DNA of 64,000 nucleotides, taken from NCBI GenBank assembly GCA_009377525.1, contig WHTW01000002.1, positions 62,001-126,000 on the forward strand, read 5' to 3'. Of this stretch, positions 42,945 to 56,876 are shown piece after piece. The position numbers and the translations under genes were made by a program. This DNA comes from Rhodospirillales bacterium (GTDB lineage: Bacteria; Pseudomonadota; Alphaproteobacteria; Reyranellales; Reyranellaceae). A model generated the notes under the pieces. The model did not search any database, was not told the origin of the DNA, and worked only from the letters and a program-made list of their open reading frames with translations. Positions within the stretch are counted from its first letter, which is position 1; the number at the start of each line of letters is the position of its first letter.

Positions 42945-44264
42945 CTACTTCATCAGATCCGGTGCGATCAGCCGCGGCAGGAAGAGCGCGATGTCGGGCC
43001 AGATGATCGTCGCCGCCAGCACCAGGACCATCGGCACCAGCATGATGATCGTGTCCTTCAGCGCATAGCGCAGCCGCACGCCGGCGACCGCGCAGGAAAT
43101 CATCAGGCAGAGCCCGTAGGGCGGCGTCACCAGCCCGAAGGCCAGCGCCACGATCGAGACGATCGCGAAGTGGACCGAGTTCATGTCGACCGACTTGGCG
43201 AGCGGCTCCAGTACCGTGCCGACGATGATGATGGCCGGGATGGCGTCGAGGAAGCAGCCGACGACCAGGAAGACGAGGGCGATGAAGAAGCCGACGCCGA
43301 TCGGACCCAACCCCCAGGTCGTGACGTTGGCCAGCAGCTCCTGCGGGATGCGGTAGTAGGCCAGCAGCCAGCCGAAGGCGCTTGCCGTGCCGATGCAGAA
43401 CAAGGCGACCGAGGCTAGCCGACCGGTGTCGAGCAGGGCCCGGTAGAGCTCGCGCGGGCCCATCTCGCGATAGACGACGATCGACAGCACGGCCGAATAG
43501 ATCACCGCCGCGCACGCCGATTCGGTGGCGGTGAACCAGCCCAGCAGGATGCCGCCGACGATGATGAACGGTGTCATGAGCGCCGGAATCGACACCCAGA
43601 GGGCGCACAGGAGCTGGCGGAAGCTCGAGCGCGGATAGGTCGGATAGCCGCGGCGCACGGCGTAGATGTGGACGGTGGCCATCTGCGCGCCGGCGATCAG
43701 CAGGCCGGGCACGACGCCCGCGAGATAGAGCGCGCCGATCGACGTCGAGATCAGCCCGCCCCACACGATCATCAGGATCGAGGGCGGGATGACGACGGCA
43801 AGCACGGCCGACACCGCGGTGATGGCGACCGAGAAGGAGAGGTCGTAGCCCTCCCTGGTCTGGGCATCGATGAAGATCTTGCTCTGGCTGGCGGCGTCGG
43901 CCGTCGAGGAGCCGGAGATGCCGGCGAAGAACACCGACAGCACGACATTGATCTGGGCGAGCGAGCCCGGCCAGCTGCCGACCAGTGAGCGTGACAGCTG
44001 GACCAGCCGGTCGGTGATGCCGCCGACGCTCATCAGGTTGGCCGTCAGCAGGAAGAACGGCACCGCCAGCAGGATGAAGGAGTTGTAGGCGTTGAAGGTC
44101 TCCTGCGCGAGCATCATGGTCGACAACCGCGGCTCGATGAAGAACAGCGGTAGGCAGGCCAGCCCGAGCGCGAAGGCCACCGGCACGCGCAGCACCAGCA
44201 GGAAGAAGAAGATTCCGAACAGGATCGCGGCGGCTTCGCTCGAGCTCAGCACCGACCCGCTCAT
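42945..44264 (-). CDS. TRAP transporter large permease (DctM family)
   Basis: Encodes 439 residues from ATG 44264, overlapping the stop of the small permease gene (ATGA). About 12-13 membrane helices; the family signatures FVVGCFLDAIPAIIIVGTVL and IVALAFGLVTPPYGLCLMIS are present. With the small permease it forms the sodium- or proton-coupled carrier of a tripartite transporter fed by the binding protein encoded upstream. Confidence 0.93.
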   Translation of the reverse strand: MSGSVLSSSEAAAILFGIFFFLLVLRVPVAFALGLACLPLFFIEPRLSTMMLAQETFNAYNSFILLAVPFFLLTANLMSVGGITDRLVQLSRSLVGSWPGSLAQINVVLSVFFAGISGSSTADAASQSKIFIDAQTREGYDLSFSVAITAVSAVLAVVIPPSILMIVWGGLISTSIGALYLAGVVPGLLIAGAQMATVHIYAVRRGYPTYPRSSFRQLLCALWVSIPALMTPFIIVGGILLGWFTATESACAAVIYSAVLSIVVYREMGPRELYRALLDTGRLASVALFCIGTASAFGWLLAYYRIPQELLANVTTWGLGPIGVGFFIALVFLVVGCFLDAIPAIIIVGTVLEPLAKSVDMNSVHFAIVSIVALAFGLVTPPYGLCLMISCAVAGVRLRYALKDTIIMLVPMVLVLAATIIWPDIALFLPRLIAPDLMK

Positions 44265-44776
44265 GACCCGGTCATGCCAAAGAGGATGCGGACCTCGTCG
44301 GCGAACTGCTCGCCGAGAAAGACGATCCAGGTGACGCCGGCCACCGGCCAGGCGATATGGATCAGCCACAGCTCGAGATCGGCCAGCTCGGAGGTGCGGT
44401 ACCAGGCGAAGCGGGTGAACTCGATGCCGCCGACAACGAAGACCAGCGCCATCGCCAGGACACCGAGGCGGGCGACGATGCGGACGGCTGCTTCGCCGCG
44501 CCGCGGCAGGGTTGGCCAGACATCGACCTCGAAATGCGCGCTCTCGCGCACGCCCACCATGGCGCCGATCATGATCATCCAGATGAACAGGAAGCGCGCC
44601 ATCTCCTCGGTCCAGATATAGGCCGGGATCAGATTGGTGTAGCGCGACACCATCTGCAGGGTGACCGGGATGACGAGGATCGCCACCGAAAGGGCGAGCA
44701 GAGCCGTCAGGAGACGGGCATAGGCCAGAGTGAAGCGGCGCCACGGGCCAGGCGGCGGAGCGTCTGAAAGCGACAT
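44261..44776 (-). CDS. TRAP transporter small permease (DctQ family)
   Basis: Encodes 171 residues with four membrane helices. PAYIWTEEMARFLFIWMIMI followed by GAMVGVRESAHFEVD is the conserved DctQ core. It precedes the large permease with a 4-base overlap and follows the binding-protein gene, separated by a palindrome. Confidence 0.92.
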   Translation of the reverse strand: MSLSDAPPPGPWRRFTLAYARLLTALLALSVAILVIPVTLQMVSRYTNLIPAYIWTEEMARFLFIWMIMIGAMVGVRESAHFEVDVWPTLPRRGEAAVRIVARLGVLAMALVFVVGGIEFTRFAWYRTSELADLELWLIHIAWPVAGVTWIVFLGEQFADEVRILFGMTGS

Positions 44777-44801
44777 CGGGTACCGTACGAAGAAGGGCGC
44801 G

Positions 44802-44829
44802 GCGCAGCGGACCCGAAGGTCCGCTGCGC
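44802..44829 (+). repeat. perfect 12-bp palindrome inside the TRAP operon
   Basis: GCGCAGCGGACC and GGTCCGCTGCGC enclose CGAA. It is located between the binding-protein and small-permease genes. Such a hairpin could stabilise the upstream mRNA and give more binding protein than permease. Confidence 0.75.
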
Positions 44830-44838
44830 ATGAACGGG

Positions 44839-45831
44839 TCAGTTCAGGGCGACGATCTTGGTGAAGATCGCGTCGGCGCCGATCTCCTTGGCGTAAGCCG
44901 CCATCACCGGATCGACGAGCTTCTTCATCTCGGCGCGGTCCTTGAAGGGGATGCGCTTCAGCTTGCCGGCCTTCTCCAGCGCCACGAGCTTCTGCTCGTC
45001 CTCCGAGCTCTCGATCTGGCGGCCGTAGGCGCCCGCTTCCTTGCCGGCCTTGACGATGGCCTCCTGCAGGTCCTTTGGCAGGCCCTTGAAGGTCTTGCCG
45101 GAGAAGCAGATCGGCCGGATCGTGATGGCGTGCTCGGTCATCGCGAGGTTGGGTGCGACTTCGTAGAACTTCATCGATTCGACGCCGGCCGCCTCGTTCT
45201 CGCCGGCCGAGATGACGTTGTTCTGGATGGCGTTGTAGACCTCGTTGTAGGCGATGACGGTGGGCGACATACCGGCCGCGGCGAAGGTCTTGGACCAGAT
45301 CGGCGCGCCCTGCACACGCACCTTCAGGCCCTTGATCTCGGCCAGCATACTCATCGGCTTGTTGATGAAGATGTTGCGCACGCCGCCGCCGGCATAGCCG
45401 ATCAGCATGACATCGGCCTTCTGGGCGATCTCGTCGGCCACCGGCTTCAGCAGGTCGGCATCAAGCACCTTGTTCCAGTGCGCCAGGTCGCGGAACAGGA
45501 AGGGCGCGTCGATGAAGGGCGCCGCCTTGGAGAAGGTCGACATGTGCGCCGGCGAGACGATGGCGTAGTCGACCGCCTTGCCCTGCGCCATGTACTCGAA
45601 ATACTGCTTCTCGAGGCCCAAGGCCGAGTTCTTGTGCAGTACGAAATTGACGGGCTTGCCGTAGTACTTCTTCACCAGCTCCTCGAAACGCACCAGTGCC
45701 TTGGTGAAAGCATGGTCGTCGTTGAACTGAACCGCCCCGTTCAGGGTGACAGGGGCCTGGGCACCGGCGCGCACGAACGGTGCAGCTACGGCAGAGGCGG
45801 CAGTACCGGCGATCAAAGTTCTGCGTTGCAT
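44839..45831 (-). CDS. TRAP transporter substrate-binding protein (DctP family)
   Basis: Encodes 330 residues from ATG 45831 with an excellent AGGAGGA six bases upstream. The N-terminus MQRRTLIAGTAASAVAAPF looks like a twin-arginine signal. KGLKVRVQGAPIWSKTFAAA contains the arginine that pairs with the ligand carboxylate in DctP proteins, and YNEVYNAIQNNVISAGENEA is the following family motif. The ligand is presumably an organic acid. Confidence 0.92.
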   Translation of the reverse strand: MQRRTLIAGTAASAVAAPFVRAGAQAPVTLNGAVQFNDDHAFTKALVRFEELVKKYYGKPVNFVLHKNSALGLEKQYFEYMAQGKAVDYAIVSPAHMSTFSKAAPFIDAPFLFRDLAHWNKVLDADLLKPVADEIAQKADVMLIGYAGGGVRNIFINKPMSMLAEIKGLKVRVQGAPIWSKTFAAAGMSPTVIAYNEVYNAIQNNVISAGENEAAGVESMKFYEVAPNLAMTEHAITIRPICFSGKTFKGLPKDLQEAIVKAGKEAGAYGRQIESSEDEQKLVALEKAGKLKRIPFKDRAEMKKLVDPVMAAYAKEIGADAIFTKIVALN

Positions 45832-46027
45832 CGATTTCCTCCTGGGGTCCACTCTTGTTGGTGGTGGTGGACCTTTGCGCGGGACTATGCCTGCGAACGC
45901 CCGCTCAGGCCAGAAAGCGCGATTCTTGCTTGGTGACGCGGTATCCGGTCGCGGACGCTCATCATCTGTAGATTGGACACAAAAAAACAGTAATAATGCG
46001 TTACACAGACAAGATACCGAGGCAGCC

Positions 46028-48034
46028 GTGCCGGGACTGTATGCGTCAGGCGCCGCTTTAGGGGCATTGGCTGCCACCGCGCTCCTCGCGACGCTGGTGC
46101 GTGGCGGGGCGCTGGCGCTCGTCTATCCGCTGTGCGCCGTGGCGGCGATCGTGCTGGGCGCCGTCGACCTGCATGTGCTGCTGACGGGAGCAGAGGCGAC
46201 GGCGCAGCTGCCCATTGGCCTGCCGACTGTCGGTCTTCACCTGCGGCTGGACGCGCTGTCGGCATTCTTTGGCATCGTGATCAATGGTGGCGTGCTGGCG
46301 GCCAGCGTCTACGGCATGGGCTTCGACCGGGCCAAGGAGTTGACGCCGCGCGTCGAACCGCTGTTCCCGCTGTTCGCCGCAGCGATGAACCTCGTGCTGA
46401 TCGCCGACGACGCCTACGCCTTCCTGTTCTCCTGGGAGCTGATGTCGCTGGCGTCTTGGGCCTTGGTGGTCGCCCGCCACACCGACCCGGAAAGCCGGCG
46501 CGCCGCCCATGTCTACCTCGTCATGGCGGCGATCGGCACGATGGCGTTGCTGTTCGCCTTCGGCGGGCTGGCCGGGCCGGCCGGCGGCTACGCCTTCGAT
46601 ACCATCCGCGCCCATCCACCCGGGCCGGCGGTCGCGGCCCTGGTGCTGGCCGCCGCGCTCGTTGGCTGCGGCTCGAAGGGCGGCCTGGTCCCGTTGCATG
46701 CCTGGCTGCCGCTCGCCCATCCGGCGGCGCCGAGCCACGTCTCGGCATTGATGAGCGGCGTCATGACCAAGGTCGCGATCTACGGCTTCGTGCGCATCGC
46801 CTTCGACCTGCTGGGGCCGCCGGCCTGGTGGTGGGCTCTGCCGCCCATCATCCTGGGTGCGCTGACGGCCGTGCTGGGCCTGCTCTATGCCGTGCTCGAC
46901 CGCGATCTCAAGCGCGTGCTCGCCTATTCGACGATCGAGAATGTCGGCGTGATCTTCGTGGCGCTGGGCCTTGCGCTCGCCTTCCGCGCCAACGGCCAGC
47001 ATGAAGCGGCAGCGGTCGCGATGGCCGCCGCCCTCCTGCACGTGCTCAATCATTCCTGGTTCAAGTCGCTGCTCTTCCTGGGCGCGGGCGCCGTGCTGCA
47101 CGCCACGGGGCGGCGCGATCTCGACGGGCTGGGCGGCCTCATCCATCGCATGCCGCGCACCGCCGTCTTCTTCCTGGTGGGCGCGCTCGCTGCCTCGGCC
47201 TTGCCGCCGCTCAACGGCTTCGTGTCGGAGTGGCTGCTGTTCCAGGCGGTCATCGCCGCGCCTGCCCTGCCACAGGCGGCGCTGCACTTCGCATCGCCGG
47301 CGATCGGCGCGATGCTGGCGCTGGCCGCCGCTCTTGCCGCCGCCTGTTTCGTGCGCGTCTACGGCACGGCGTTCCTTGGCCGCCCGCGCAGCGTCGAGGC
47401 CAACCAGGCGCACGACGTGCCGCTGGTCCAGCAGATCGCGATGGGTGGGCTCGCCTTGCTGTGCATCCTGGGTGGGTTGCTGGGCAGCCTGCTGGCAATG
47501 GCGCTGGCGCCGATCCTGGTCGACCTCGTGGGGGCCGCGCTGCCGCCGGCCGGCAGCGGCCCCACGGTGTTCGCCCTCATCGCCTTCGATCCGGCGCGCA
47601 GCGTCTACGACGCCCCGGTCATCGCGTTCTTCGTCGCCATCGCCTCGCTCACGACCGTGCTCGTAGTCCATCGCCTGTCGGCGCGGCGCACGCGACGCGG
47701 CCCGGCGTGGGATTGCGGCTTCCCCGATCCGTCTCCCGCCACGCAGTATACGGCCTCGAGCTTCGCCCAGCCGCTGCGTCGCGTGTATGGCACCGCGGCC
47801 TTTGCGGCGCGCGAGACGGTCGTCATGCCGCCGCCGGGCGATACCCGCCCCGCGCGATTCTCGGTCGTGCTGGTCGACCATGTGTGGCAAGCGCTTTACG
47901 CGGCTCCCGGCCGGGCCGTCCTTGGCCTGTCCGAGCGCCTGAATACGCTGCAATTCCTCTCCATCCGGCGCTACCTGGTCCTGATGTTCGCCGCCCTCGT
48001 CATCCTGCTGGCGATCGCCGCGGTGACGACATGA
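46028..48034 (+). CDS. hydrogenase-4 subunit B-like (HyfB/NuoL-type) membrane protein
   Basis: Encodes 668 residues from GTG 46028, close to E. coli HyfB (672), which supports this start over longer in-frame ones. It is a Mrp/NuoL-type antiporter-like subunit with about 15 helices. GSKGGLVPLHAWLPLAHPAAPSH holds the conserved lysine and histidine of the proton channel and LLYAVLDRDLKRVLAYSTIE the second lysine. First gene of six overlapping genes. The 196 bases before it, shared with the divergent TRAP operon, are AT-richer near the start. Confidence 0.88.
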   Translation: MPGLYASGAALGALAATALLATLVRGGALALVYPLCAVAAIVLGAVDLHVLLTGAEATAQLPIGLPTVGLHLRLDALSAFFGIVINGGVLAASVYGMGFDRAKELTPRVEPLFPLFAAAMNLVLIADDAYAFLFSWELMSLASWALVVARHTDPESRRAAHVYLVMAAIGTMALLFAFGGLAGPAGGYAFDTIRAHPPGPAVAALVLAAALVGCGSKGGLVPLHAWLPLAHPAAPSHVSALMSGVMTKVAIYGFVRIAFDLLGPPAWWWALPPIILGALTAVLGLLYAVLDRDLKRVLAYSTIENVGVIFVALGLALAFRANGQHEAAAVAMAAALLHVLNHSWFKSLLFLGAGAVLHATGRRDLDGLGGLIHRMPRTAVFFLVGALAASALPPLNGFVSEWLLFQAVIAAPALPQAALHFASPAIGAMLALAAALAAACFVRVYGTAFLGRPRSVEANQAHDVPLVQQIAMGGLALLCILGGLLGSLLAMALAPILVDLVGAALPPAGSGPTVFALIAFDPARSVYDAPVIAFFVAIASLTTVLVVHRLSARRTRRGPAWDCGFPDPSPATQYTASSFAQPLRRVYGTAAFAARETVVMPPPGDTRPARFSVVLVDHVWQALYAAPGRAVLGLSERLNTLQFLSIRRYLVLMFAALVILLAIAAVTT

Positions 48035-48999
48035 CCGGCGACCTCGTCGTGCAGTTCCTGGCGCAGGGCGCCCAGATGACCTTCGTGCTGCTGATCGCGC
48101 CGCTCGCCGTCGGCATCGTGCGCCGGGTCAAGGCGCGGCTGATGCGCCGGCAAGGTCCGCCGCTGCTGCAGGCCTATTTCGATCTGGCCAAGCTGCTGCG
48201 CAAGGAGTCGGTGATCGCCGAGACCGCCTCCTGGCTGTTCCGCAGCGCGCCCTACCTGATCTTTGCGCTGACCTGGGTGGCGGCCGCCCTGGTGCCGAGC
48301 TTCGCCTCGGGGCTGATGTTCAACTGGGCGGCCGATGTCGTGGCGCTGGTGGCGCTGCTGGGTGCGGCCCGCGCCCTGCTGGCGCTGGCCGGCATGGATG
48401 TCGGCACCAGCTTCGGCGGCATCGGCTCGTCGCGCGAGATGATGATCGCCACGCTGGCCGAGCCTGCCATGATGCTGATCGTGCTGACGCTTGCGATCGC
48501 CGCCGGCACGACGCGGCTGGCCGGCGTGGCCGACTTCTTCATCGCCGAGCCGTTCGCGGTGCGGGTGTCGCTGGCGCTGTCGCTGATCGCGCTGATCATC
48601 GTGGCGCTAGCCGAGAATGCCCGCATTCCGGTCGACAATCCGGCGACGCATCTCGAGCTCACCATGGTCCACGAGGCCATGGTGCTGGAGTATTCCGGCC
48701 GCCACCTGGCGCTGATCGAGGCGGCGAGCCATCTCAAGCTGGTTCTCTACATTTCCCTGCTGATCTGCCTGTTCGCACCGTTCGGCATGGCGCCGGCGAA
48801 CGCGGGCGTGGCCGGCTGGGCGATCGGGCTTGCGGCCTGGTCGGTCAAGCTCCTGATCGGCGCCGCCCTGCTCGGCGTCTGGGAGATCAGCATCGCCAAG
48901 ATGCGCGTCTTTCGCCTTCCGGATTTCGTCGGCATCGCCTTCGTGTTCGGCTTCCTCGCCATCCTGCTGGCGTTCCTGACGCGCGGGGTCTTGGCGTGA
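48031..48999 (+). CDS. hydrogenase-4 subunit C-like (HyfC/NuoH-type) membrane protein
   Basis: Encodes 322 residues from ATG 48031, overlapping the previous stop by 4 bases. About eight helices; PPLLQAYFDLAKLLRKESV and NARIPVDNPATHLELTMVHE are the conserved cytoplasmic loops of NuoH/HyfC that contact the peripheral arm. It joins the membrane antiporter subunits to the hydrogenase-like head. Confidence 0.92.
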   Translation: MTGDLVVQFLAQGAQMTFVLLIAPLAVGIVRRVKARLMRRQGPPLLQAYFDLAKLLRKESVIAETASWLFRSAPYLIFALTWVAAALVPSFASGLMFNWAADVVALVALLGAARALLALAGMDVGTSFGGIGSSREMMIATLAEPAMMLIVLTLAIAAGTTRLAGVADFFIAEPFAVRVSLALSLIALIIVALAENARIPVDNPATHLELTMVHEAMVLEYSGRHLALIEAASHLKLVLYISLLICLFAPFGMAPANAGVAGWAIGLAAWSVKLLIGAALLGVWEISIAKMRVFRLPDFVGIAFVFGFLAILLAFLTRGVLA

Positions 49000-49655
49000 A
49001 TCAGGCCTACGAGATCTCCCATCTGCTGGCTGGAGCAATGCTGGTCACGAGCTTCGCGCTGCTCTACCAGGAGCGCATCGCCGCCGTGCTCAACGCCTTC
49101 GCGGCGCAATCGATCACTCTGGCGCTCGCCGTGGCCTGGGCCGCCTGGTCGGACCATCGGCCAGACCTCTTCATCACCGCGCTGATCGCGCTCACGCTCA
49201 AGGGCATCATCATTCCTCTGGCGTTGCGCCGCACGGTGGAGAGGCTCGGCATCCATCGCGAGGTCGAGAAGGTCGTGGGGGTGGGAGTCGCCCTGTTGGT
49301 CGGTCTGGCGCTCACCGGGCTTGCCCAGGCGCTGGTCGTCAAGGTGGCGTCGGGGACGCCCAGCCACGCCCGCGAGGCGCTGGCGCTGGCGCTCGCCATC
49401 GTCCTGCTGGGCTTCCTGATGATGATCGTGAGGCGCAACGCGGTGACCCAGATCGTCGGCTTCATGTCGATGGAGAACGGGCTCATCCTCGCCGCCACCG
49501 GCGCGCGCGGCATGCCGCTCGTGGTCGAGGTCAGCGTCGCCTTCTCGGTGCTGATCGCGCTGTTCGTGTTCGCGGTCTTCGTGTTCCGCATCCGCGAGCG
49601 TTTCGACACCATCGACATCGAGGCGCTCGACCGCATGCGCGGGGACCGCCGATGA
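48996..49655 (+). CDS. hydrogenase-4 subunit E-like (HyfE) membrane protein
   Basis: Encodes 219 residues from GTG 48996, overlapping the HyfC-like stop. About six helices; the C-terminal half RNAVTQIVGFMSMENGLIL resembles NuoK/MrpC, as in HyfE. It is found only in hydrogenase-4-type and related complexes, so it is diagnostic for the type of this cluster. Confidence 0.88.
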   Translation: MNQAYEISHLLAGAMLVTSFALLYQERIAAVLNAFAAQSITLALAVAWAAWSDHRPDLFITALIALTLKGIIIPLALRRTVERLGIHREVEKVVGVGVALLVGLALTGLAQALVVKVASGTPSHAREALALALAIVLLGFLMMIVRRNAVTQIVGFMSMENGLILAATGARGMPLVVEVSVAFSVLIALFVFAVFVFRIRERFDTIDIEALDRMRGDRR

Positions 49656-51088
49656 TCCACGCCTACCAGCTCGTGGTCCTGGTGCCCTATGCGGCGGCGC
49701 TGATCCTGGTGGCGTTCCCGGGATACCGCGTCGGCGCCATCGGCAATGTGCTGGCCTCCGCCGTGACTTTCGGCGCCGGTCTCTGGCTGATGGTGGGCGA
49801 CGGCCAGGTCGGCGAGTATGTCATCGTCGACGAGTTCAATATCGTCTTCATCGCCATCAATACCCTGGTTGGCTTCACGACCGCGCTGTTCAGCGCCTCC
49901 TACATCGGCCATGAGATCGAGACCGGCCGGCTGTCGCCCCTCTATGTGCGATTCTACCACGCCATGTTCCAGGCGATGATGGGCTCGATGAATGTCGCCC
50001 TCGTCGCCAACAACATCGGCGTGATGTGGGTCGGGCTGGAGCTGGCGACGCTGATCACCGTAGTGATGGTCGGGCTCTACCGCACGCCGCAGGCGATCGA
50101 GGCGGCGTGGAAGTACTTCATCCTGGCCAGCGTCGGCATCTCGCTCGCCTTCTTCGGCACCATTTTGATCTACCTCGCCGGCCAGCCGGCGCTGGGTGAG
50201 GGCGCGCCGGCGATGACCTGGAGCCTGTTGCAGGCGGCGGCCGCGCAGATGGATCCGGGAATCCTGGACCTTGCTTTCATCTTCCTGCTGATCGGCTACG
50301 GCACCAAGGTCGGTCTGGCGCCGCTGCATGCCTGGCTGCCGGATGCCCATGCCGAGGGCCCGACGCCGATCTCGGCGGTGCTGTCGGGCCTGCTGCTGAA
50401 CGTGGCGCTCTATGCGCTGCTGCGCTTCAAGATGCTGGTGGCCGGCCAGCCGCAGGCGCTCGATCCGGGGCCGATCATGATCGTGATGGGCCTGGTGTCG
50501 CTGATCTTCGCGGCCTTCATGCTGTACCAGCGGCGCGACATCAAACGCTTCTTCGCCTACTCCTCGATCGAGCATATGGGCCTGATCGTGTTCGCCTTCG
50601 GCATGGGCGGGCCGCTCGCCAACTTCGCCGGCCTGCTGCACATGGCCATGCACAGCCTGACCAAGTCGGGCATCTTCTTCGCCGTCGGCCACATCGCCCA
50701 GGCCAAGGGCACCCAGCGCTTCGCCGAGATCACGGGCCTCAGCGTCACCCATCCGAGGCTCGCCGTCGCCTTCGCCCTGGCCGTCCTGGCAATCGCCGGC
50801 CTGCCGCCGTTCGGGGTGTTCACCAGCGAGTTCCTGATCCTGACCACGACCTTCGCCCGCGAGCCGTGGCTCGCCCTGTTGCCGGCGTTCGGCTTGCTGG
50901 TCGGCTTCGGCGCCCTGCTGATGCGCCTGCAGGGCACGATCTTCGGCGAGCCGGTCGGGCCGGCGCATCGTGTCGACGCCTCCTCGGTGCCGATGGTCCT
51001 GCATCTGCTGCTGGTGTTCGCAGCGGGCATCTTCCTGCCGCCCGCCCTGGTCGCCTGGTTCCAGCGCGCGGCGGAGCTGCTGGGATGA
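49652..51088 (+). CDS. hydrogenase-4 subunit F-like (HyfF/NuoN-type) membrane protein
   Basis: Encodes 478 residues from ATG 49652, 4-base overlap with the previous gene. A second antiporter-like subunit: GLELATLITVVMVGLYRTP, GYGTKVGLAPLHAWLPDAHA (channel lysine) and RRDIKRFFAYSSIEHMGLI are present. With the HyfB-like subunit the complex would have two ion-translocating antiporter modules. Confidence 0.92.
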   Translation: MIHAYQLVVLVPYAAALILVAFPGYRVGAIGNVLASAVTFGAGLWLMVGDGQVGEYVIVDEFNIVFIAINTLVGFTTALFSASYIGHEIETGRLSPLYVRFYHAMFQAMMGSMNVALVANNIGVMWVGLELATLITVVMVGLYRTPQAIEAAWKYFILASVGISLAFFGTILIYLAGQPALGEGAPAMTWSLLQAAAAQMDPGILDLAFIFLLIGYGTKVGLAPLHAWLPDAHAEGPTPISAVLSGLLLNVALYALLRFKMLVAGQPQALDPGPIMIVMGLVSLIFAAFMLYQRRDIKRFFAYSSIEHMGLIVFAFGMGGPLANFAGLLHMAMHSLTKSGIFFAVGHIAQAKGTQRFAEITGLSVTHPRLAVAFALAVLAIAGLPPFGVFTSEFLILTTTFAREPWLALLPAFGLLVGFGALLMRLQGTIFGEPVGPAHRVDASSVPMVLHLLLVFAAGIFLPPALVAWFQRAAELLG

Positions 51089-52569
51089 GCAGCGCGCTCG
51101 CCCTCGCCAATCTCGTCGCCGGCCACGCCGCCGGGCCGGACGGCCATGTGCGCCTTGCCGTCGATGCCGACACCTGGACGGCGCTGGCCCAAGGCTGCGC
51201 CGCGGGCAGGCACGATCTCGTCTCGTTATGGGCCGACGGCGGCGTCATGCACATGGCGCTCAGCGACCCCGAGCGGGGCCTGCGCGCCATCGTCTCGCTC
51301 AAGACCGATGCCGGCCGCTATCCGTCGGTCGCGGCGTGTCACCCGCCGGCGTTGCGACTGGAGCGCGCCATGCGCGACCTCTACGGCGTGCAGCCGGTCG
51401 GCCTGCCCGATCCCCGGCCGTGGCTCGATCATGGACGCTGGCCCGGCCGGCAGAGCGAGGCGCGCTACGAATTCCTGCCGACCGAGGGTGAGGGGCTGCA
51501 CCAGATCGCCGTGGGGCCGGTCCATGCCGGCATCATCGAGCCGGGTCATTTCCGCTTCACCGCCAATGGCGAGACCGTGGTGCGGCTTGAGCAGAGGCTG
51601 GGCTACGTGCACAAGGGCGTCGAGGGCCTGATGGCGGGAGCCGAGGTCGAGCAGGCCGCGCGCATCGTCGGGCGCATCTCGGGCGACAGCACGGTGGCCT
51701 ATGCCTGGGCCTATGCCGGCGCGGTCGAGGCGGCGACGGGCTGGACGCCACCGCCACGTGCCGTGCTGCTGCGCGGCATCATGGCCGAGCTGGAGCGGCT
51801 GTCGCAACACATCAACGATGTCGGCGCGATCTGCAACGACGCCAGCGTTATCACGATGAATGCCCACTGCGCCTTGCAGCGCGAGGATCTGTTGACGGTG
51901 GCCGACGCCTGCTTCGGCCACCGCCTGATGATGGATCGCATCGTGCCGGGCGGCGTGTCCGCCGACCTGACGCCCGAAGGCATCGGCCGGATCCGCAATC
52001 TCCTGGTGCGGTTCGAGGAGACGCGCGCCGAGATCCAGCGGGTCTACGATTCGATGCCGTCGCTGCAGGATCGCACCGTCACCACCGGCATCGTGTCGCC
52101 CGAGCTCGTCCGCCAATACGCGGCCGGCGGCTTCGTCGGCCGGGCCTCCGGCCGTGCCGTCGACGTGCGCAAGAACTTCGCCTATGCGCCCTACGACCGG
52201 GTGGATTTCCAGCTCAAGACGCGGACCGCCGGCGACGTCGACGCGCGTCTGCTGGTGCGCATGGACGAGATCACCGAGAGCCTCGGAATCCTTTCCCAGC
52301 TCCTGGGCCGCCTGGCGCCGGGCGAGATCCGGGCCGACCGTCCAGCCCTCGCCGCGGGCGAGGGCGCGGCACTGGTCGAGGCCTTCCGCGGCGAGGTCTT
52401 CGTGAGCGTGCGCCTGGGCGCCGACGGCCGGCTCGCCCGCGTCCATGCGCGCGACGCGAGCTGGTTCCAGTGGCCGCTCCTGGAAGCCGCCATCGAAGGC
52501 AACATCGTTGCGGACTTTCCGCTCTGCAACAAGTCGTTCAACTGCTCCTACTCGGGTCACGACCTGTGA
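51085..52569 (+). CDS. hydrogenase-4 large-subunit-like protein (HyfG/NuoCD fusion) lacking Ni-Fe cysteines
   Basis: Encodes 494 residues. Residues 1-140 are NuoC-like (RLERAMRDLYGVQPVGLPDP); 140-494 are NuoD/hydrogenase-large-subunit-like (AVGPVHAGIIEPGHFRF...GYVHKGVEGLM). Where group 4 [NiFe] hydrogenases have the first ligand motif CGIC, this protein reads RISGDSTVAYAW (197-208) with no cysteine. At the C-terminus, DPCxxC is replaced by DFPLCNKSFNCSYSGHDL (477-494), with cysteines five residues apart. It therefore should not bind a Ni-Fe centre. It fits the 'energy-converting hydrogenase-related' (Ehr) type. Confidence 0.9.
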   Translation: MSSALALANLVAGHAAGPDGHVRLAVDADTWTALAQGCAAGRHDLVSLWADGGVMHMALSDPERGLRAIVSLKTDAGRYPSVAACHPPALRLERAMRDLYGVQPVGLPDPRPWLDHGRWPGRQSEARYEFLPTEGEGLHQIAVGPVHAGIIEPGHFRFTANGETVVRLEQRLGYVHKGVEGLMAGAEVEQAARIVGRISGDSTVAYAWAYAGAVEAATGWTPPPRAVLLRGIMAELERLSQHINDVGAICNDASVITMNAHCALQREDLLTVADACFGHRLMMDRIVPGGVSADLTPEGIGRIRNLLVRFEETRAEIQRVYDSMPSLQDRTVTTGIVSPELVRQYAAGGFVGRASGRAVDVRKNFAYAPYDRVDFQLKTRTAGDVDARLLVRMDEITESLGILSQLLGRLAPGEIRADRPALAAGEGAALVEAFRGEVFVSVRLGADGRLARVHARDASWFQWPLLEAAIEGNIVADFPLCNKSFNCSYSGHDL

Positions 52570-52579
52570 GAGCGCGGCG

Positions 52580-53095
52580 ATGAGATCGTTCCTGCTCGAC
52601 GCCCTGCGCAAGGGCAAAGCCACGATCAAGCCGCCCGCTCCGGGCACGGACGCGCTCGAGGAGATCGCGCGGGCGCTGGGCGAGCGCGCCCGCCAGCGGC
52701 TCGGCCGGTCGCTCGCCATCCGCGAGATCGATGCCGGTTCGTGCAACGGCTGCGAGCTCGAGATCCATGCCGTCAACAACCCGGTCTACGATGTCGAGCG
52801 CTTCGGCCTGAAGTTCGTGGCCTCGCCGCGCCATGCCGACGTGCTGCTGGTCACCGGGCCGGTCACCTGGAACATGCGCGAGGCGCTGCTGCGCACCTAC
52901 AACGCGACACCGGAGCCCAAATGGGTCGTGGCGCTGGGCGACTGCGCCACCAATTGCGGCGTCTTCGCGGGCTCTCCCGCCGTGGTCGGACCGCTGGCCG
53001 ACGTCCTGCCGGTCGACCTGCATGTGCTGGGTTGTCCGCCGCCGCCGATCGAGATCGTGAAGGCGCTGCTGGCCTTGATGGAGACGCAGGCCTGA
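52580..53095 (+). CDS. hydrogenase-4 small-subunit-like protein (HyfI/NuoB-type)
   Basis: Encodes 171 residues from ATG 52580. The ligands for one [4Fe-4S] cluster are intact: Cys55 and Cys58 in GSCNGCELEIHAV, Cys122 in LGDCATNCG and Cys152 in GCPPPP. Unlike its large-subunit partner, it therefore keeps an electron-transfer centre. It is the last gene of the cluster. There is no HyfA/HyfH ferredoxin-type gene, no formate dehydrogenase and no maturation protease gene nearby. Confidence 0.92.
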   Translation: MRSFLLDALRKGKATIKPPAPGTDALEEIARALGERARQRLGRSLAIREIDAGSCNGCELEIHAVNNPVYDVERFGLKFVASPRHADVLLVTGPVTWNMREALLRTYNATPEPKWVVALGDCATNCGVFAGSPAVVGPLADVLPVDLHVLGCPPPPIEIVKALLALMETQA

Positions 53096-53118: not shown

Positions 53119-53233
53119 GAATCCGATCAGATGGAACCGCGTGCGGTTCCATCTGATCGGATTCGCGCGCACCGGCGATGTTTGTTTCACAGGGCACAAT
53201 CCGTCCTGCTGATTCCAGCTGGACGGATTGTGC
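53119..53233 (+). repeat. two-hairpin repeat, copy 1
   Basis: Hairpin 1 has perfect 22-bp arms (53119-53140 and 53143-53164) containing GATGGAACCGC. A spacer GCGCGCACCGGCGATGTTTG follows. Hairpin 2 has arms starting GCACAATCCGTCC (53194-53206) and GGACGGATTGTGC (53221-53233). The element follows the HyfI-like gene. The second full copy is at 56698-56812. Confidence 0.85.
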
Positions 53234-53273
53234 TCCAAGCCTGTTGGCCGCGTATAGTTGGCACGCAAGGACC

Positions 53274-56247: not shown

Positions 56248-56693
56248 TTTCAGGAATACTGGCGGAGCTTGATCGTCAGCACCGACGCGCGCCAGCATCG
56301 CCACGGCACAGACCACGGCGCAGAGCGCCGCCCAGAAACGGGCTTTCTCGAGAGCCGGGCTTGCGTAGGCACCGATGATCTCGAGGGCGGTGCAGACGCC
56401 CACCCCGATCGCGACGGCCAGGAACACCAGCTTGGCGTCGCGCGAGATCATCACCACCGGCCGTGCCGGACGCCGATCATCATCCCGCGCACGACGCCGA
56501 TGACGAGGCCGATGGCCGCGGCGGCGGCGAAAGCCCAGCGCGGCTGTCCAGCGCCGATCTGGATCAGGAACAAGCCGGCCGCCACGAACAGCGCGGCCGC
56601 GCCGGGCGCGAACAGGCCCGATTGCGAGACATGGGCCCGCGCAGCTCACGAGCGACGAGATAGATGGTGGCCGCCGCGCCCAGTGCCAGCTAG
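56248..56693 (-). pseudogene. multiply frameshifted membrane protein
   Basis: On the minus strand, pieces of one membrane protein appear in different frames. One frame begins GAAATIYLVARELRG; another gives FAPGAAALFVAAGLFLIQIG followed by AFAAAAAIGLVIGVVRGMMI; the next has MISRDAKLVFLAVAIGVG then FWAALCAVVCAVAMLA; a last frame ends SVLTIKLRQYS and a stop just beside the thioesterase stop. At least three indels would be needed to join them (near 56635, 56465 and 56290). Either the gene is decayed or the sequence has errors here. The remaining gap to 56876 holds the two-hairpin repeat and no gene. Confidence 0.55.
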
Positions 56694-56697
56694 AGCG

Positions 56698-56812
56698 GTT
56701 TCCGTTTGGATGGAACCGCACGCGGTTCCATCCAAACGGAAACGCGCGCTACGGTGATGTTCGTTGCAGGAGGCACATTCCGTCCGGCTGATTCCAGCCG
56801 GACGGAATGTGC
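56698..56812 (+). repeat. two-hairpin repeat, copy 2
   Basis: Hairpin 1 has perfect 22-bp arms (56698-56719, 56722-56743) containing GGATGGAACCGC. The spacer GCGCGCTACGGTGATGTTCG is like copy 1. Hairpin 2 has perfect 18-bp arms (56773-56790, 56795-56812) with loop ATTC. Several arm positions differ from copy 1, yet pairing is kept on both sides. Confidence 0.88.
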
Positions 56813-56876
56813 TCCAGCAGCAGGTGGACGAGGGACAGATTGTGCACCATCCCGGGAGCTCGACCGGCTCGGGAAC

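Follow-up and report, generated by a model that had tools for sequence, protein, structure and literature searches.

A hydrogenase-4-like operon without Ni-Fe ligands in a Reyranella relative probably encodes a complex-I-like ion pump

We analyzed a six-gene operon in the order hyfB, hyfC, hyfE, hyfF, hyfG, and hyfI (46028–53095, + strand) within a window of 64,000 nucleotides from a Reyranella relative (Rhodospirillales bacterium, GenBank contig WHTW01000002.1; contig C131 of the 7.35 Mb genome, here G000). The complex encoded by these genes is almost certainly not a hydrogenase, and we consider it to be, with a probability of roughly 60%, a complex-I-like ion pump of the energy-converting hydrogenase-related (Ehr) kind with a minimal set of six subunits. 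That the complex is a redox-driven ion pump is, taken by itself, probable. The first-pass annotation of this DNA had listed six hydrogenase-4-like genes (B, C, E, F, G, and I), in agreement with the coordinates, the protein families and the NCBIfam matches reported here. In gene order, the Pfam-type families are Proton_antipo_M, NADHdh, Oxidored_q2, Proton_antipo_M, Complex1_49kDa together with 30kDa, and Oxidored_q6, and the NCBIfam models "hydrogenase 4 subunit B" and "hydrogenase 4 subunit F" were matched above cut-off. Adjacent genes from hyfB to hyfG share 4 bases, and hyfI opens 10 bases past hyfG. The start codon of hyfB is GTG, with an alternative earlier opening of the frame at 45746; hyfI was opened at 52445 in the open reading frame (ORF) list, and its start was taken as 52580. 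The features are:

46028..48034, + strand: hyfB-like, antiporter-like subunit (NuoL type) with a putatively ND3-like C-terminal part (WDCGFP loop)
48031..48999, + strand: hyfC-like, membrane anchor of the NuoH/ND1 type with E-channel acids
48996..49655, + strand: hyfE-like, NuoK/ND4L-type subunit
49652..51088, + strand: hyfF-like, second antiporter-like subunit
51085..52569, + strand: hyfG-like, large subunit, NuoC+NuoD-type fusion without Ni-Fe ligands
51679..51690, + strand: Ser199-Gly200-Asp201-Ser202 of HyfG at the place of the CGIC motif (HycE Cys241, Cys244); SGDS in 80/81 and SGDA in 1/81 sequences
52525..52527, + strand: Cys481 codon of hyfG
52540..52557, + strand: Asn486-Cys487-Ser488-Tyr489-Ser490-Gly491 of HyfG at the place of DPCYSC (HycE Asp529, Cys531, Cys534)
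52580..53095, + strand: hyfI-like, NuoB-type small subunit with ligands for one [4Fe-4S] cluster
52742–52744, 52751–52753, 52943–52945, and 53033–53035, + strand: HyfI Cys55, Cys58, Cys122, and Cys152, respectively

The former Ni-Fe site of HyfG

HyfG proteins from 80 loci and the window (81 sequences) were aligned with E. coli HycE, E. coli HyfG, and the genome's own NuoD. Both RISGDSTVAYAW and the C-terminal end DFPLCNKSFNCSYSGHDL were confirmed in HyfG, and the positions of the Ni-Fe cysteines are occupied by Ser199 (81/81), Ser202 (80/81), Ser488 (78/81), and Gly491 (80/81; one row truncated). All 81 sequences also have Asp201 and Asn486. The protein ends at the motif without a maturation tail, and E. 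coli HycE and HyfG extend 32 residues further. No CxxC motif was found in HyfG, nor any hidden DPCxxC or CGxC in any + frame of the hyfG region (one CAPC near the 5' end lies in another frame), so that neither the protein nor a shifted frame holds a motif that would speak against the loss of all four cysteines claimed by the first-pass annotation. The alignment and the frame scan thus bear this claim out.

Other functional positions have been kept. HycE His188, His284, Arg395, Glu437, and Arg478, to which the formate hydrogenlyase structure paper assigns roles in a proton route (PMC9474812), correspond to HyfG His147, His242, Arg353, Glu395, and Arg435, beside the former Ni-Fe site. These are present in 81/81 sequences, with the exception of His242 (80/81). 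HyfG His176, also 81/81, occupies the position of the quinone-site histidine of complex I. In complex I, the quinone-site His and Tyr are Nqo4 His38 and Tyr87. The best solved relative of HyfG is HycE (7z0s_E, E 2e-50), and E. coli HycE is also the closest fold (Foldseek TM 0.84) to an AlphaFold2 model of HyfG with a predicted local distance difference test score (pLDDT) of 79.3 and a predicted template modelling score (pTM) of 0.84. The former Ni-Fe cavity could not be read in this model because the pLDDT falls below 50 at residues 122–176 and 470–494.

Two further cysteines of HyfG, Cys481 and Cys487, had been put forward as a possible different site. They are present in 79/81 and 81/81 of the nearest relatives, respectively. 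Among 15 wider relatives (L099–L113), 5 carry both cysteines, 1 (Methylocalor) has only Cys481, and 9 have neither; Cupriavidus metallidurans, Paraburkholderia, Burkholderia pyrrocinia, and Variovorax carry Ile and Leu at the 2 positions. The constant core across the wider relatives consists of Ser-Gly-Asp-Ser/Thr and Asn-Lys-Ser-Phe-Asn. At the Ni-Fe positions, 14 of the 15 have no cysteine and Mycobacterium branderi has one; the Halostella row is of the complex I type. A general site at Cys481 and Cys487 did not hold up in this comparison, and on sequence grounds we regard it as doubtful.

Small subunit, membrane arm, and distribution of the operon

HyfI contains cysteines at positions 55, 58, 122, 126, and 152. 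Cys55, Cys58, Cys122, and Cys152, which had been assigned to one Fe-S cluster, are indeed found in 74/74 sequences, and position 126 is Cys in 25/74. They are arranged as the CxxC of hydrogenases rather than as the adjacent cysteines of complex I, a contrast taken from PMC9474812. The description of HycC in that paper suggests that the C-terminal part of HyfB is ND3-like. The membrane arm retains its charged proton-path residues: antiporter-type residues are near-invariant, for example in HyfF (E130, K219, K338) and HyfB (E137, K217, K346), as are the E-channel glutamates of HyfC (E136, E144, E195, E209, E215, E220). In addition, four HyfC positions that are Glu, Gln, Ala, and Gly in the E. 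coli protein are occupied by clade-specific invariant residues (His207, His214, Arg224, and His225, respectively).

In five loci (L052, L055, L062, L066, L075) the operon lacks hyfI beside hyfG. A HyfI of 61–63% identity is encoded elsewhere in 5/5 of these genomes, and therefore the small subunit has been kept despite its separation. Relocated hyfI lies 3' of an acyl-CoA dehydrogenase gene in 4/4 readable cases, with gaps of 64, 13, 375, and 4 bases; the fifth is masked. The stretches in which hyfI follows this gene are L196, L198, L199, and L200. This adjacency may be one event, because those metagenome-assembled genomes look related. An acyl-CoA dehydrogenase gene is found near hyf in only one of 95 other loci (L074, at 3.7 kb) and not in the reduced genome G216 described below, and we rejected this enzyme as partner.

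The hyfG gene (>400 bits) is present in 28/75 Reyranellaceae genomes and, own genome included, in 24/289 sampled genomes of the class, which is more than chance. Named nearest relatives, at 82–84% identity, include Reyranella soli. All six genes were matched in 68/80 loci, and 67 of these read BCEFGI; most loci with another reading are cut by contig ends. The hyfB match of L074, whose contig starts inside hyfC, is a cross-hit. At least 2 kb of flank on both sides was available for 52/80 loci. ORFs flanking the 80 loci and the window were clustered, and in the 45 largest clusters no redox gene recurs; we rejected a conserved neighbour as electron donor. An ORF with a C..C..C...C motif lies within 5 kb in only 3/80 loci and in none of the other 77. 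Outside the Reyranella clade, the sole recurrent neighbour is a gene for an XRE-type helix-turn-helix protein of approximately 81 amino acids, which 41 loci carry some 130 bases upstream of hyfB (L061 4593–4835 is an example); it is missing from the Reyranella loci.

The first-pass annotation had stated that ferredoxin, formate dehydrogenase, and maturation genes are missing. This holds at the locus; elsewhere in G000, however, there is a formate dehydrogenase gene above cut-off (C197) and a family member below cut-off (C186). A genome-wide check for maturation genes found neither HypD nor HycI in G000. HypD is absent from 23 of the 28 family genomes with hyfG, including the single-contig genomes G048 and G051 (99% and 100% complete), and occurs in 5/28 genomes with hyfG versus 2/47 without (p 0.095). 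The genome of the window also carries a separate nuo cluster (C134).

Several arrangements around the operon were observed in passing. In the window, a TRAP transporter-like set, recognized by eye, adjoins hyfB (42945–46077, - strand), and in R. soli (L020) the upstream gene instead stands immediately 5' of hyfB. Overlapping ORFs at about 53120–53260 and 56690–56830 of the window have stretches in common, such as MEPHAVPS, which hint at a dispersed repeat just 3' of hyfI. On a plasmid of Methylovirgula, a divergent F1Fo-ATPase cluster adjoins the hyf operon (L102 508–6207), succinate dehydrogenase genes lie near L089 and L109, and spermidine-synthase-like genes are found near the operon on three Burkholderiales plasmids (L103, L111, L113). 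In L049 (4602–6725), a gap of approximately 2 kb separates the hyfB and hyfC matches, unlike in the other loci checked.

Retention of the complex in a reduced genome

One genome of the class sample, G216, is listed at 0.9 Mb and 100% complete (932,830 bases, 33% GC; stretches L116–L187). Its hyf genes lie in L120 and L136: hyfB, hyfE, hyfF, hyfG, and hyfI are open, and a contig break interrupts hyfC. Nearly all key residues are kept (16/16 in HyfG, 4/4 in HyfI, 11/11 in HyfE, 25/27 in HyfF, 22/23 in HyfB). The Complex1_49kDa family matches only hyfG in G216, Reyranella NuoE, NuoF, NuoG, and NuoH queries gave no tblastn match, and NuoB, NuoC, and NuoD were found by tblastn as fragments only (L120 5139–6370), which read as probable pseudogene remains. 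There was no match in G216 to the E. coli cyoABC, cydAB, ndh, aceEF, lpd, gltA, and sucAB queries. NAD-formate dehydrogenase, HypD, and Rnf gave none either, in searches that found the nth positive control. ATP synthase genes, fumarate reductase, GlpC, and a MenA above its cut-off are present, together with a fixABCX-like operon. A motif screen picked out three Fe-S proteins, among them the FixX-like ferredoxin (best NCBIfam match FixX, below cut-off). From this gene content, the complex can therefore persist in a genome that lacks complex I, formate dehydrogenase, and Hyp proteins, and it may be the only pump in G216.

The G216 operon suggested FixABCX as a general donor, a candidate that we rejected, as FixX occurs in 0/75 Reyranellaceae. 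Within the class sample (E <1e-15), FixX was found in 4/24 hyf genomes versus 5/265 others (Fisher p 0.0035, uncorrected for kinship), two of the four belonging to one family; counting six weak matches, the figures are 4/24 versus 11/265.

Proposed reaction, alternatives, and significance

Ehr complexes, which lack Ni-Fe motifs and are of unknown function, are described in PMC6349859, PMC10284858, PMC12342949, PMC10432482, PMC4378227, and PMC7894505. Examples given there include Geobacter GSU0739-45, Nitrospira, Sulfobacillus, and ammonia-oxidising archaea (PMC7894505, PMC10284858, PMC12342949, PMC4378227, PMC10432482). The complex studied here shares with them a group-4-related large subunit without Ni-Fe cysteine motifs and two antiporter-like subunits (HyfB and HyfF), a likeness by described features rather than by comparison with named Ehr sequences, among which the subunit sets vary. 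The Ehr resemblance noted at first pass is thereby upheld. The same six genes are already in print. In C. metallidurans CH34 (hyfBCEFGI, Rmet_4666-4671) and C. necator H16, a role in lithotrophic growth was judged unlikely (PMC2864759), and a six-gene cluster of Acidithiobacillus ferrooxidans is described as a non-hydrogenase (PMC7735108). The CH34 large subunit is 44.9% identical to HyfG and has SGDS and DFPLINKSFNLSYAGHDL but, unlike HyfG, neither Cys481 nor Cys487. The likeness of the At. ferrooxidans cluster is drawn from its published description. The system is thus less novel than had been implied. E. coli hydrogenase-4 and formate hydrogenlyase (7z0s) have counterparts of all six subunits and provide the best fold match, but the operon lacks hyfD, hyfJ, and the ferredoxin-type hyfA and hyfH of hydrogenase-4, its Ni-Fe ligands, and its C-terminal tail. 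Complex I is homologous in the Q-module and membrane arm (NuoB, NuoCD, NuoH, NuoK, NuoL/M/N) and differs in that the operon has no NuoE, NuoF, NuoG, or NuoI, that HyfI has CxxC, and that Gly200 and Asn486 stand at quinone-site positions.

No NuoI/HyfH-type subunit is encoded beside the complex. In the ion pump that we propose, the HyfI cluster would be reduced directly by a low-potential soluble carrier, which could be a ferredoxin or a flavoprotein depending on the host. The electron would then pass to a quinone entering a Ser/Asp/Asn-lined pocket in the former Ni-Fe place, and this transfer would drive HyfC, HyfE, HyfF, and HyfB to move protons or sodium, in a direction that may be reversible. 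A quinone as partner falls somewhat short of even odds, because the quinone tyrosine and the canopy aspartate have been lost; a ferredoxin-type donor is more tentative again. Several points weigh against the proposed pump. Donor, acceptor, and pumped ion are proposals drawn from sequence comparison. HyfG Gly200 (81/81) aligns with the complex I quinone tyrosine (Nqo4 Tyr87), and HyfG Asn486 (81/81) stands where HycE, like NuoD, has the canopy aspartate (HycE Asp529); both differences speak against a quinone site of the complex I type. Model confidence is low exactly at the former metal site of HyfG. In G216, Lys248 of HyfB is replaced by Asn, and His87 and Lys352 of HyfF are changed; moreover, G216 may have other primary pumps, such as H+-PPase, decarboxylase pumps, or a ccb3-type oxidase.

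A formate dehydrogenase encoded elsewhere could instead dock onto the complex, with formate electrons driving the pump. Such an arrangement was proposed for Riflemargulisbacteria and Saganbacteria (PMC6349859) and suggested for Geobacter, where Ehr subunits were more abundant on formate (PMC7894505), and G000 does contain formate dehydrogenase genes. However, none adjoins the operon, and 77/80 loci lack a C..C..C...C ORF within 5 kb. Family members occur in 71/75 Reyranellaceae with or without hyf, and therefore co-occurrence is uninformative; the Reyranella formate dehydrogenase had no tblastn match in G216. We rejected it as partner and regard this alternative as improbable. Archaeal MBS/Mbx is a complex I relative without Ni-Fe that reportedly performs sulfur chemistry at an Fe-S cluster. 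A similar chemistry might take place in the opened pocket of HyfG, among whose sequence matches is an archaeal "NADH dehydrogenase subunit D" (6u8y); yet most wider relatives lack the candidate sulfur-binding cysteines 481 and 487, and no sulfur gene recurs among the 45 largest neighbour clusters, which leaves this idea little probability.

The complex might also serve pH or ion homeostasis under acid or anion stress, with a structural or regulatory redox arm. This derives from distant Ehr-like loci of Alicyclobacillus (L105), M. branderi (L106), and a Burkholderia cenocepacia plasmid (L107), in which 17 fluoride riboswitch matches were found amid crcB, DUF190, enolase, pyrophosphatase, and CLC-type channel genes. 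A riboswitch precedes the large-subunit gene at 9932 in L105 (9726–9786), a NUDIX gene followed by a NuoH-like gene in L106 (6103–6176), and the NuoH-like gene at 6714 in L107 (6404–6474). In a 36-row tree, which includes no named Ehr row, the 31 rows without Ni-Fe motifs group together (100/99), separate from HycE/HyfG and NuoD, and the fluoride cousins branch as the sister group (100/99) of the six-gene clade (99/98), with long branches flagged as a caution. Rfam searches, which covered the window and 11 of 93 other sources, gave no match whatsoever in the window and no Fluoride match in the 11 loci. Model R1, built from the L105–L107 matches, gave none in 93/93 other sources, a weak test because the model comprises just 6 base pairs. 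On these results we rejected regulation of the window operon by fluoride. They also count against a homeostasis device, as do the invariance of all four HyfI cluster cysteines and the retention of hyfI even when relocated, and we assign this alternative a similarly low probability. Formate hydrogen lyase is among the common fluoride-riboswitch genes according to a review citing earlier work (PMC11139923); some of these "formate hydrogenlyases" may be Ehr complexes, because the L105–L107 large subunits lack Ni-Fe motifs.

A working hydrogenase with unusual ligands, for which the HycE-like fold speaks, is hardly credible given the loss of the four ligands and the maturation tail, the failure to find HycI and HypD in G000, and the absence of HypD from G216 and most operon-bearing family genomes. 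Equally hard to credit is a decaying relic, which has only the lost metal site in its favour and is refuted by conservation: open frames, the BCEFGI order in 67/80 loci, invariant replacement residues, and retention in G216.

New here are the reduced genome G216 with the complex, the retention of HyfI after relocation, and the fluoride-riboswitch cousins; a narrow literature search aimed at such cases met no account of a G216-like reduced genome or of hyfI relocation. Several papers raise the question of which reaction Ehr complexes catalyse, and the family is common (24/289). The handles gained are the exact replacement residues, a negative test of the cysteine site, and G216, an anaerobic-looking genome, as a natural experiment; C. 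metallidurans, Rhizobium johnstonii 3841, and Xanthobacter are culturable hosts of the same operon. Going further, the six-subunit Ehr complex could be a self-sufficient low-potential-carrier:quinone oxidoreductase that replaces complex I without NuoI or a dedicated donor. We hold this to be rather unlikely. Its setting in G216 would comprise menaquinone, FixABCX-like flavoproteins with a FixX-like ferredoxin, GlpABC, fumarate reductase, and ATP synthase. If true, the complex would accept electrons from any soluble carrier in its host, and G216 would depend on it as its chief, perhaps its sole, redox-driven ion pump.

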